From Verrucomicrobiota bacterium (lineage in GTDB: Bacteria; Verrucomicrobiota; Verrucomicrobiia; JADLBR01), in assembly GCA_029560585.1 (NCBI GenBank), contig JAKQKQ010000092.1, positions 1 to 64,000 on the forward strand: a stretch of 64,000 nucleotides of DNA, read 5' to 3'. The stretch's first letter is position 1. Every line of letters starts with the position of its first letter. The translations under genes were made by a program, and so were the position numbers. The notes beneath the pieces are model-generated. The model was not told the DNA's origin. It worked only from the letters and a program-made list of their open reading frames with translations, and did not search any database. Of this stretch, positions 31,568 through 35,312 are shown piece after piece.

Positions 31568-31578
31568 AAAGGAGGTGA
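31568..31578 (+). promoter_or_regulatory. Near-perfect Shine-Dalgarno before the 48-aa ORF
   Basis: AAAGGAGGTGA matches the anti-Shine-Dalgarno sequence almost perfectly and is separated by 6 bases from ATG 31585. It is stronger than the ribosome sites seen at other genes of this window, argues that the 48-aa ORF is real, and decides its start. Confidence 0.8.
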
Positions 31579-31584
31579 AGAAGC

Positions 31585-31731
31585 ATGATCGTCCGAACAT
31601 TCCCAAGCGAACCAACCGAGGAGCAAATCCAGGAATCCCTTGAGTTGGCGAGCTGCAAGTGCAGCCGTTGCACGCGCACCGGCGAGCAATCCGATTCCAA
31701 GTCTGCATCCGAAGATCTCGGCTCCACCTGA
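31585..31731 (+). CDS. Candidate RiPP precursor peptide, Cys-rich, 48 aa
   Basis: A 48-residue ORF starting at ATG 31585 behind a near-perfect ribosome site. The N-terminal leader-like part is acidic and helical (MIVRTFPSEPTEEQIQESLE). It is followed by a tight cysteine motif, C24-K-C26-S-R-C29, and a polar Ser/Asp/Glu-rich tail (RTGEQSDSKSASEDLGST). No homologue is recognised. The layout (short, strongly translated, leader plus Cys-rich core) and the downstream genes (stem-loop, ABC exporter, SPASM radical-SAM maturase) fit a precursor for thioether-type (sactipeptide or ranthipeptide-like) modification. A small metal-binding or regulatory protein would be the alternative. Any modification and its site are inference. 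Confidence 0.75.
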   Translation: MIVRTFPSEPTEEQIQESLELASCKCSRCTRTGEQSDSKSASEDLGST

Positions 31732-31756
31732 TGCCGACAGTCTAGGATTTAGCAAA

Positions 31757-31788
31757 GACCCGTCGCCGGGTCATACCGGCGGCGGGTC
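31757..31788 (+). terminator. Stem-loop attenuator between precursor ORF and transporter genes
   Basis: GACCCGTCGCCGG (31757-31769) pairs with CCGGCGGCGGGTC (31776-31788), 12 of 13 bases, around loop GTCATA, followed by AATTTTG. It sits 25 bp after the precursor stop and 13 bp before the permease ATG. Leaky terminators in this position typically give more peptide than enzyme transcript. Confidence 0.6.
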
Positions 31789-31801
31789 AATTTTGAAACG
31801 A

Positions 31802-32659
31802 ATGCGCGACCACAGACTTTCCGAGAGGCATATCACGCCCGGTCCGGCACTTGGAGACCCCGTGGGCCTCGTGCGAGCGATGTGTGGCGACTACGCCCGC
31901 TCCGGGGAACTGGCATGGGCCCTATTCCGCCGCAGCCTGCGCTCACAGTACCGCCAGACTTTGCTGGGCTACGGCTGGCTACTGATCCCGCCGCTCGCCA
32001 CCACAGTCACCTTTCTCGCCCTGCAGCGCGCGAATATTGTCAACCCTGGAACCAGCGCCGCCGGCTATGCGGCATTCGTGATGACGGGCGCCGTTCTCTG
32101 GCAGGGATTCACGGACGCCCTGGGCAGTCCACTGCGCGTCATCCGATCGGCGATCTCCATGCTGGCATCGGTAAATTTTCCCCGCGAGGCGCTGGTGGTG
32201 GGCGGTCTCATGGAGGTGCTGTTTTCTCTCGGCGTGCGAGTCGCGTTTCTGCTGATCGCCCTCGCGGCCATGGGTTCGCCACCGTCCTGGGCAACGCCCC
32301 TCGCCGTGGGGGCGATCGCGGCACTCGTCTTGCTGGGCTGGATGGTGGGCCTCCTGCTGGTCCCCGCGGGCATACTCTTCCGGGACGTGGAATTGGGGCT
32401 GCCGATCATCACCACCGTCTGGTTCTTCATCACGCCCGTGGCGTACAACCTGCCTTCGGAGGGCCTCCTTGCGATCGTCGGTCGCCTCAATCCGGTCACC
32501 CCATTGCTGGTCCTCGGGCGCGACCTGATTCTGCGGGGAGAGACCGAGCACGTCATGGCGGCCGCGCCCGCGCTCGCCGCCACGCTCGGCCTGGCGTTTG
32601 CGGTGTCGGTTCTCTTCCGGATCACCATCCCGCACGTCGTCAAGCGCCTACCCGGATGA
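31802..32659 (+). CDS. ABC-2 type exporter permease (Wzm/TagG-like)
   Basis: A 285-residue inner-membrane permease with six hydrophobic segments. The N-terminal amphipathic entry (LAWALFRRSLRSQYRQTLLGYGW) is the family pattern before the first membrane helix. The loop VNFPREALVVGG and the VWFFITPVAYNLPSEG segment are typical of polysaccharide ABC-2 exporters. Start 31802 gives the normal family length; an in-frame start upstream would run through the precursor ORF. Its stop overlaps the ATPase start by ATGA. The glycan-exporter type is unusual beside a peptide maturase. Confidence 0.85.
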   Translation: MRDHRLSERHITPGPALGDPVGLVRAMCGDYARSGELAWALFRRSLRSQYRQTLLGYGWLLIPPLATTVTFLALQRANIVNPGTSAAGYAAFVMTGAVLWQGFTDALGSPLRVIRSAISMLASVNFPREALVVGGLMEVLFSLGVRVAFLLIALAAMGSPPSWATPLAVGAIAALVLLGWMVGLLLVPAGILFRDVELGLPIITTVWFFITPVAYNLPSEGLLAIVGRLNPVTPLLVLGRDLILRGETEHVMAAAPALAATLGLAFAVSVLFRITIPHVVKRLPG

Positions 32660-33888
32660 ACACTTCGGATGCCCCCCTGATTCGAGTCAAGGATCTTTCG
32701 GTCCGGTACTGCCGCGGCCTTTTTCGCTCACTCCTATATGCGGCTGGCGACTGCGCGAGGGAGTTGGTCGCCCGAGGTGCACCGGGTCCCGACCTGCGAG
32801 CCGGCGAGTTCTGGGCCCTCCGCGATGTCACCTTCGAACTGCGCCGTGGCGAATGCCTGGGCGTGATCGGCGCCAACGGTGCCGGCAAATCCACCCTTCT
32901 CAAGGTCCTGAACGGCCTCTTCAAGCCCGATGCGGGCACCATCACAACTCGAGGGAGAGTCGGCGCACTCATCGAACTGGGCACCGGTTTCAGCCCGGTC
33001 CTCAGCGGCCGGGAAAACGTCTTCATCAATGGAGCGGTGCTCGGAATCCCCCGATCCGAGATCGTGCGCAGGTTCGAGCGCATCGTTGACTTCTCTGAGA
33101 TTGGCGACGCCATCGACGCCCCCGTGCGCACGTACAGCACCGGGATGGCGCTCCGGCTCGCGTTTGCCATCGCGCTCGAGATGGACCTCGATGTCCTGCT
33201 GCTCGATGAAATCCTCGCCGTGGGCGACGTCGGATTCCGCGCAAAATGCCACCGCGCCATGGAGGAGCGCCTCGCCGACTCGGCTGTCATATTCGTCTCC
33301 CATTCCATGCCCCAGGTCGCCCGCCTCTGCACGCGCCTGCTCGTGCTCGATAAGGGACGCATCGCTTACCATGGCCCGGACATTCCCGCCGGCATCGAGT
33401 GCTACTACAACCACTTCCCATTCGAGGGCGATGATCGCGCCCGTGCCGCAGGATGGTCGCTGGAGTCCATCGCACTGGCACCGCACCCCCCCCAGGAGAT
33501 CACCTGCCATGCCCCCAGACTTTCGCCCGGCGATGGTTTGCGGATCGATGCCACCGTCCGGTTTGAGCGCGCCTTTCGTCGGTTGGCGCTCAGCGTCCTG
33601 TTCTCCGATCGCGAGACCCGCGGCGTCGCGCAATGCAATCCGTCGGGCGCGCTCCGGGCCGAGGATCTGGTCGCCGACCGCGTGAGTTTCCAGATCGCGG
33701 TACCACGATTGCCCCTGAACCCCGGCAGCTACGCCGTGTCTCTGGTCGCCATGGACGAAGAAACCGGCCGGTTCTTCGGCACCCTGCAGCATGCCGCACA
33801 GTTCCGCATCGACGGCGACAGATTCGGCTTCACCCCCGTGCAGTTAGATGGCTCGTTGGCGCTGGATGGCCAAAACGCAACATGCTGA
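32656..33888 (+). CDS. ABC exporter ATPase with Wzt-like C-terminal domain
   Basis: A 410-residue ATPase of the Wzt/TagH/RfbE type. Walker A is GANGAGKST (about 76-84), the signature YSTGMALRLAFAIALE and Walker B DVLLLDEILAVGD follow; the switch His is in VIFVSHSM. After about residue 250 is a beta-rich C-terminal domain of the Wzt_C kind, which in O-antigen systems recognises the capped glycan. It powers the permease encoded just upstream. The last 7 bp overlap the start of the radical-SAM gene, so transporter and maturase are co-translated. The C-terminal domain may recognise a peptide or glycopeptide here; that is inference. Confidence 0.9.
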   Translation: MNTSDAPLIRVKDLSVRYCRGLFRSLLYAAGDCARELVARGAPGPDLRAGEFWALRDVTFELRRGECLGVIGANGAGKSTLLKVLNGLFKPDAGTITTRGRVGALIELGTGFSPVLSGRENVFINGAVLGIPRSEIVRRFERIVDFSEIGDAIDAPVRTYSTGMALRLAFAIALEMDLDVLLLDEILAVGDVGFRAKCHRAMEERLADSAVIFVSHSMPQVARLCTRLLVLDKGRIAYHGPDIPAGIECYYNHFPFEGDDRARAAGWSLESIALAPHPPQEITCHAPRLSPGDGLRIDATVRFERAFRRLALSVLFSDRETRGVAQCNPSGALRAEDLVADRVSFQIAVPRLPLNPGSYAVSLVAMDEETGRFFGTLQHAAQFRIDGDRFGFTPVQLDGSLALDGQNATC

Positions 33889-35312
33889 TCCACAAATTCC
33901 AGACCGCATCGGGTCGACGCTACGTTTACGACGCGTGGACGAACGAGATTTTGGAGGTCGATGCGGAGATCTACGACGCGCTGCCACCGCGCAGCGGGAA
34001 TTCCGCGGAACTCTCGCCCCGCGTGGCCACGGAGATTGCCTCGGCACGCCAGGCCGGGCTGCTCCGGGAGGACCGACCTGATGTCCGCAGTTTCCCACCC
34101 GCGGAACGGGCACGGCTGCTTCGTCGCCTCAAGGAACGAGGGCCAGAACTCCTCATCCTCAACGTGACCGAACGATGCAATCTCCGGTGCCGCTATTGCC
34201 CGTGGTCGGGCGCCTACGAGGACAATCGGACGCACAGCGAGCGAGTCATGCCCGAAGAGACCCTGCGCAAGGCGATCGCATGGTATCTCTCCTTCCCCAG
34301 GGATGCCGACAGCATCTCCTTCTACGGCGGAGAACCCCTCTGCGATCTCGAACTCATCCGACGCGCCGTGGACTTTGCGCTGGATCTCGCCAAGCGACCG
34401 ATCCAATTCCGCATCACCACCAACGCCACCCTGCTTCACCCACGCGCCTGCGATTTCCTCGCCAAACATGATTTCCGGCTATCCGTCAGCATCGATGGCC
34501 CCCAGGAGGTGCACGACCGCTATCGGCTCTTTGGGGACGGCAGGGGATCCTTCGCGGCCGTATGGAAGGGGCTGGAGACGCTCCGCAGCAGCCATCCTGA
34601 TTACTTCCGAAAGCGCGTTGCCTACAACGTCGTCGCGGCATCACCCGCCCGGCTCATTGCCATCCGCGACTTTTTCGCCAGCCACCCGGAGTTCTTTGCT
34701 TCCCACCGTCTCTCAATTTCCAGGGTCAACCCCTACCCCTCTTGCCTGCCAGAGTTTCTGCTGGGGGGCTGGCGTGATCCGGAATTTCGCGCCCAGCGGG
34801 AAGAGGCCTTTGGCGAGTTTCGCGCCCGGCTCCTTCGGGGCGAAATCGACACCGACGATTTTCACTTCCAGCTCTTCGCCGACAATTTCATCGACATGCA
34901 CCAGCGGGTGACAGTCCCCATGAAACCGGCGGTGCCCAGCCATGGGCAGTGCGTTCCGGGTGGCGCAAAATGCTTCGTCGATACCGATGGCTCCCTCCAC
35001 ATGTGCGAGCGCGTGGGTGACGGGAGACCGATCGGGCACGTGTCGACCGGACTCGACCTCAGGGCCATCTCGCGCTTCCTCAGGGAATACGACGAGTTCT
35101 TCCGCGCGTGCTGCGCAGATTGCTGGGCGCTCCGGCTCTGCTCAAAATGCTTCGTGCACCTGCGGGTTGGGGGGGAGTTCTCGACATCGCGCCGCGCGGA
35201 AGTCTGCGCGACCGAGCAGCGCAAATGGTCGTGGATCATCCGGCAGTACTGCGAGATCCGGGAAGAAAAGGCCGACGCCTTTGCCTGGTGCAAGGGGATC
35301 CCGGCGGTCTGA
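33882..35312 (+). CDS. Radical-SAM/SPASM peptide maturase
   Basis: A 476-residue enzyme with an N-terminal segment YVYDAWTNEILEVDAEIYDAL (about 14-34) that resembles the start of peptide-modifying SPASM enzymes. The radical-SAM core has C99-x3-C103-x2-C106 (CNLRCRYC), FYGGEPL (147-153), TTNATLL and SVSIDGP. The C-terminal SPASM domain has C357, C364 and C375 (CFVDTDGSLHMC), then C411-x2-C414-x5-C420-x2-C423 and C442, enough for two auxiliary clusters. It would make a radical-based crosslink on a peptide, most plausibly the 48-aa ORF upstream. ATG 33882 overlaps the ATPase end by 7 bp. AnSME-type sulfatase activation is the other main SPASM role; a sulfatase does occur in this window but 23 kb away. 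Confidence 0.92.
   Translation: MLIHKFQTASGRRYVYDAWTNEILEVDAEIYDALPPRSGNSAELSPRVATEIASARQAGLLREDRPDVRSFPPAERARLLRRLKERGPELLILNVTERCNLRCRYCPWSGAYEDNRTHSERVMPEETLRKAIAWYLSFPRDADSISFYGGEPLCDLELIRRAVDFALDLAKRPIQFRITTNATLLHPRACDFLAKHDFRLSVSIDGPQEVHDRYRLFGDGRGSFAAVWKGLETLRSSHPDYFRKRVAYNVVAASPARLIAIRDFFASHPEFFASHRLSISRVNPYPSCLPEFLLGGWRDPEFRAQREEAFGEFRARLLRGEIDTDDFHFQLFADNFIDMHQRVTVPMKPAVPSHGQCVPGGAKCFVDTDGSLHMCERVGDGRPIGHVSTGLDLRAISRFLREYDEFFRACCADCWALRLCSKCFVHLRVGGEFSTSRRAEVCATEQRKWSWIIRQYCEIREEKADAFAWCKGIPAV

Follow-up and report, generated by a model that had tools for sequence, protein, structure and literature searches.

The described systems that lie closest to the locus considered here are radical SAM RiPP pathways. 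In the CcpM/CLI_3235 systems (maturase family TIGR04068 with precursor family TIGR04065; SacP23 of Paenibacillus polymyxa), a short Cys-rich precursor is encoded beside the enzyme and an ABC exporter lies in the cluster (PMC10731318). In ruminococcin C2, from the RumMC/ruminococcin C system, the bonds from the CxC donors reach acceptors 13 and 7 positions downstream, and there are two hairpins with four bonds (PMC8172795). A third point of reference is CteB, a SCIFF thioether maturase (PDB 5why and 5wgg) with an N-terminal RRE, a radical SAM barrel and a SPASM layout. On the side of transport, the Wzm/Wzt exporters form a class known for glycans, represented in the PDB by the O-antigen exporter of Aquifex aeolicus (6m96, 7k2t and 8dku).

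The locus lies in the window (the whole stretch of 64,000 nucleotides that was analysed), where a four-gene unit at positions 31585–35312 of the forward strand encodes, in order, a peptide, a permease, an ATPase and a radical SAM enzyme. The permease and ATPase genes overlap by the four bases ATGA and the ATPase and radical SAM genes by 7 bp, as a preliminary description of this DNA had noted. We consider it probable that this is a compact RiPP operon, in which the peptide is crosslinked by leader-guided radical SAM chemistry that forms thioethers and is then exported by the Wzm/Wzt pair. The peptide gene (31585–31731, forward strand; 48 aa, MIVRTFPSEPTEEQIQESLELASCKCSRCTRTGEQSDSKSASEDLGST) begins 6 nt after a near-consensus ribosome-binding site (GGAGGTGA, 31571–31578, forward strand), and both this site, earlier called near-perfect, and the pattern C24-K-C26-S-R-C29 are present as first reported. 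The leader carries the motif IVRTFPS at residues 2–8; the core is ASCKCSRCTRTGEQSDSKSASEDLGST, with cysteines at positions 24, 26 and 29. For the unmodified precursor with its N-terminus unprocessed, the calculated monoisotopic mass is 5250.41 Da.

The same four genes, in identical order, occur in a genome of another phylum, Gammaproteobacteria bacterium RIFOXYD12_FULL_61_37 (MGZB01000002.1; this locus is referred to below as L019). The identities are 46% for the peptide, 43% for the permease, 54% for the ATPase and 48%, over the whole length, for the enzyme, which is the closest homologue of the window enzyme among the matches listed. The permease and ATPase genes of L019 also overlap by ATGA, its enzyme and ATPase genes overlap as well, and upstream stands an ORF, likewise of 48 aa (MIKPTFKGAVEKPLKQAPVVADECKCKCGRCTRNDERSDSSQASSDLC), that repeats the Cys pattern. 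The condition proposed earlier as refuting the reading, homologues of the enzyme that lack a conserved short ORF or its cysteines, therefore did not apply to this closest homologue. Because the same gene set and a matching peptide are found in an unrelated bacterium, we regard this as a real, undescribed peptide-modification system; the earlier proposal that peptide, SPASM maturase and exporter constitute a gene set of the sactipeptide/ranthipeptide type gains support from the second cassette. In the window, the cassette is flanked by a DUF1846 gene upstream and by an adenylate-kinase-like gene downstream, on the opposite strand, whereas the neighbours in L019 are a ClpB-type chaperone (assigned by sequence) and an unrelated downstream gene; given these differing flanks, the four genes appear to be transferred together. 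At the DNA level the DUF1846 gene is 82% identical to that of a genome from the same genus, which places the contig in this lineage. In that genome, a different gene follows DUF1846, and no relative of the radical SAM enzyme was found.

When 84,980 species genomes were scanned with an alignment of relatives, at least 78 loci were recovered, and a scan with the single sequence gave no match. The window and L019 are the members of the cassette among the matches listed, and more may exist. Relatives of the cassette were absent from 384 genomes of the window's class, 190 relatives of the L019 genome, 274 genomes of the class to which L019 belongs, 246 genomes of another phylum and viral contigs; a plasmid search returned distant maturases only. 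We call the system a radical SAM RiPP that is rare and horizontally scattered.

The enzyme (33882–35312, forward strand; 476 aa) has the radical SAM motif CxxxCxxC at C99, C103 and C106 and auxiliary-cluster cysteines at positions 357, 375, 411, 414, 420, 423 and 442, all of which are invariant in 25 relatives. The Pfam model for radical SAM proteins (PF04055) matches at 67 bits, above its gathering cutoff of 29.5. The SPASM part of the earlier assignment is retained on account of the seven invariant cysteines and the match of the structural model to CteB, although the Pfam SPASM model (PF13186) gives no match. An AlphaFold (AF2) model (pLDDT 89.8) has CteB as its best fold match in the PDB. 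The N-terminus of the model (about residues 1–60) consists of three strands followed by helices which, together with the overall match to the RRE-bearing CteB, suggests an RRE-like domain. The best NCBIfam matches are, in turn, the CcpM maturases (TIGR04068, 7.1e-85 over the full length, 285.6 bits, and 255.3 bits for the L019 enzyme; curated cutoff 500), RumMC (NF035951, 211.8 bits; cutoff 720) and the lachnocin maturases (172.4 bits, below cutoff). The positive control for TIGR04068, a Blautia CcpM (locus L029), passed with 568.7 bits. Membership in the CcpM, RumMC and lachnocin families was therefore rejected, as was identity with QhpD/PeaB, for which the score was weaker and no amine dehydrogenase genes were seen alongside. 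Judged by sequence, the enzyme is distantly related to the CcpM/RumMC sactipeptide maturases.

In a tree of 87 enzymes with SH-aLRT support, the window and L019 enzymes are sisters (99), and the adjoining clade (99) comprises enzymes from Chlorobiaceae, Rhodoblastus, Syntrophobacteraceae and the archaeon Methanothrix. These four CcpM-like enzymes adjoin short peptides (L020:4490–4624, L021:8409–8579, L023:8374–8739 at its 3' end, and L024:7227–7376) that end C-x-D-E-C-V-G-G-T-A-x-x-x-x-M-x-x-T; the NCBIfam precursor models matched none of the three that were compared with them. The leaders of three sister-clade peptides have I/L-x-x-V-F-x-G where the window has I-V-R-T-F-P-S, and the common motif (I-x-x-x-F-x-G/S) could serve for docking. 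In 41 of the 71 relatives with enough flank, a short ORF that encodes CxC and has a ribosome site lies near the enzyme, compared with four of 71 on the opposite strand. Short CxC peptides were noted at L034:607–750 and 817–951, L051:5989–6126 and L067:297–443 (MIKIFAP..., MIRLIPS..., MINIIGS..., MKDFKFF...), each with a ribosome site and upstream of a CcpM-like enzyme, in Aminicenantes, WOR-3 and Acidobacteriota. The relatives show that enzymes of the CcpM-like type accompanied by short CxC peptides extend well past the Firmicutes and occur across many phyla as well as in some archaea. Longer proteins are also found beside related enzymes. In one genome from the window's phylum, a 129-aa ORF (L015:5316–5705, reverse strand), with a Tat-like segment MSRREFARTVGSS and a core CSDSGCGICLSCSCICV, precedes a CcpM-like enzyme with a 4-base overlap; in two genomes from its class, PapB/QhpD-like enzymes are followed by Cys/Asp-rich proteins of 348 and 390 aa (L017:10052–11098 and L018:7331–8503, reverse strand) that have repeated Cys motifs and no Pfam match, the second being Tat-like.

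It can be envisaged that the RRE-like domain of the enzyme recognises the N-terminal leader of the precursor through the I-x-x-x-F-x-G/S motif, and that a 5'-deoxyadenosyl radical, acting with auxiliary clusters held by the SPASM domain, would carry out radical abstraction at core residues. Thioethers would then join Cys 24, 26 and 29 to residues further down the core. By analogy with ruminococcin C, where the donors are CxC and the bonds nested (PMC8172795), the likeliest acceptor zone would be the conserved ExSDSxxASxDL (E34–L45), giving a nested hairpin. The dedicated Wzm/Wzt pair would finally export the modified peptide. In the gap between the peptide and exporter genes there is, as had been noticed, a hairpin (31757–31788, forward strand): it has 13 perfect base pairs and a stability of −31 kcal/mol (z −5.9), and none of 200 shuffles was as stable. 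A comparable hairpin occupies the same place in L019 (4850–4895). A plain terminator was rejected, as the U-tract is poor and the element was missed by the scan; Rfam has no family for the region. The hairpin resembles an attenuator or mRNA-processing element, and probably keeps the output of the precursor above that of the enzyme and exporter.

Several observations count against the RiPP-operon reading: there are two members among the matches listed; the cassette comes with neither a peptidase nor an immunity gene; exporters of this class are known from glycan transport, and the C-terminal domain of this one points to a glycan ligand; the peptide, with three cysteines and no hydrophobic core, is unlike antimicrobial sactipeptides; and the enzyme scores well below every curated maturase cutoff. 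By itself, the 48-aa ORF would be weak evidence, as the same 12 kb contain 109 ORFs of at least 40 aa. The peptide also fails every curated family cutoff, so that the earlier failure to place it in a described class is borne out; TIGR04065 gives no match at E up to 10 (the same model does match the precursors of L028 and L029), and tblastn against plasmids gives chance matches only. That the ORF arose by chance, with the true substrate encoded elsewhere, is nevertheless very improbable. The ORF is taken to be real because its length, place and core are conserved in L019, the start motif is shared, and the ribosome site is strong. The two peptides align over the start of the leader and the core, sharing CKCxRCTRxxExSDSxxASxDL, and the L019 peptide is the top match among 12,016 short ORFs from 83 related loci, with a score of 85 compared with a maximum of 63 in 5,000 shuffles; ranks 2–5 are short Cys-rich ORFs at loci of CcpM-type enzymes. 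Among all loci examined, the motif C.C.[RK]C[ST][RK] is confined to the two cassettes. Alternatively, the enzyme might modify the peptide without forming thioethers, by C–C or ether crosslinks of the cyclophane type, epimerisation or decarboxylation, leaving the cysteines free for metal or disulfides. SPASM maturases do perform many reactions, models of cyclophane and QhpD-like enzymes also score, more weakly, and CKC-x-x-C in a hydrophilic core could bind metal. However, CcpM, RumMC and CteB, the best family and fold matches, all form thioethers or are catalogued as doing so, aromatic residues like those of cyclophane substrates are missing from the core, and the cysteines are the conserved feature of the peptide; we consider this alternative improbable. 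The product would be hydrophilic, which makes a role as a signal, in metal binding or at the surface more likely than that of a membrane-active bacteriocin.

The cargo of the exporter is the more finely balanced question. The permease (31802–32659, forward strand; 285 aa), of the ABC-2 type, matches NF050109 (1e-6) and Wzm structures 6m96 and 9qfx (about 1e-8), and the ATPase (32656–33888, forward strand; 410 aa) matches ABC_tran (2.7e-20) and the Wzt structure 8dku (5.8e-70). The preliminary description of a Wzm/Wzt-like exporter was thus accurate for both genes, whose products show homology to Wzm and Wzt along the greater part of their sequence. Its remark that a glycan-type exporter is unusual here also holds: among 78 fetched relatives, from at least 78 loci, only L019 has such a pair beside the enzyme, and no paper on a RiPP with Wzm/Wzt was found in the literature. 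One possibility, to which we give roughly even chances, is that the pair was co-opted for recognition and export of the radical-SAM-crosslinked peptide or a peptide–glycan conjugate. Another, which we think rather unlikely, is that it exports a glycan or glycoconjugate, with the modified peptide as a partner, cap or regulator instead of cargo. Evidence for the latter includes the near full-length alignment of the ATPase to A. aeolicus Wzt (positions 50–397, through 8dku residue 374), in which the carbohydrate-binding C-terminal domain is included, and a match of this C-terminus to Wzt_C (PF14524; E 4.9e-5, 23.8 bits, against a gathering score of 30.4). Against it, no glycosyltransferase or sugar-nucleotide gene was seen in the cassette of either genome, and both cassettes stand alone between unrelated genes. 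Moreover, the window's genome has a second Wzt-like ATPase (G000:C220:52611–53912; L113:2611–3912, reverse strand) adjoining genes for a glucose-1-phosphate cytidylyltransferase-like and an epimerase/dehydratase-like protein, which is apparently its ordinary polysaccharide exporter. It follows that the Wzm/Wzt pair of the cassette can be seen as a dedicated copy and, since no glycosyltransferase accompanies it, that the peptide would be its likeliest cargo. If so, this would be, as far as we have found, the first case of an O-antigen-type transporter given over to a ribosomal peptide, and the RiPP family that it serves would have reached different phyla horizontally; current views of what Wzm/Wzt can transport, and of what the C-terminal domain of Wzt does, would need rethinking.

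Compared with the known systems, the cassette is of a familiar kind with unfamiliar parts. It shares with CcpM/CLI_3235 its best-scoring maturase family and the arrangement of precursor, enzyme and exporter, but the enzyme falls short of the family cutoff and the precursor lacks an MKKLGKK-type leader; a split Wzm/Wzt pair takes the place of the ‘multidrug’ ABC protein of SacP23 (PMC10731318), and there are no acyl-carrier, immunity or other accessory genes. With RumMC it has in common the CxC donors and the proposed acceptors downstream in the core, at a score far below the cutoff. CteB has the same domain layout at about 20% identity, and SCIFF precursors carry six cysteines in 45 residues. 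The exporter aligns with that of A. aeolicus and yet sits inside a peptide-maturase operon. The kind of system is known, that of the radical SAM RiPPs; what finds no match in the libraries and literature searched is the precursor family, the subfamily of the enzyme and, most of all, its pairing with this exporter. The cassette offers a minimal, testable RiPP system of four genes whose precursor family is new, and it connects radical SAM peptides with an exporter class known for polysaccharides.
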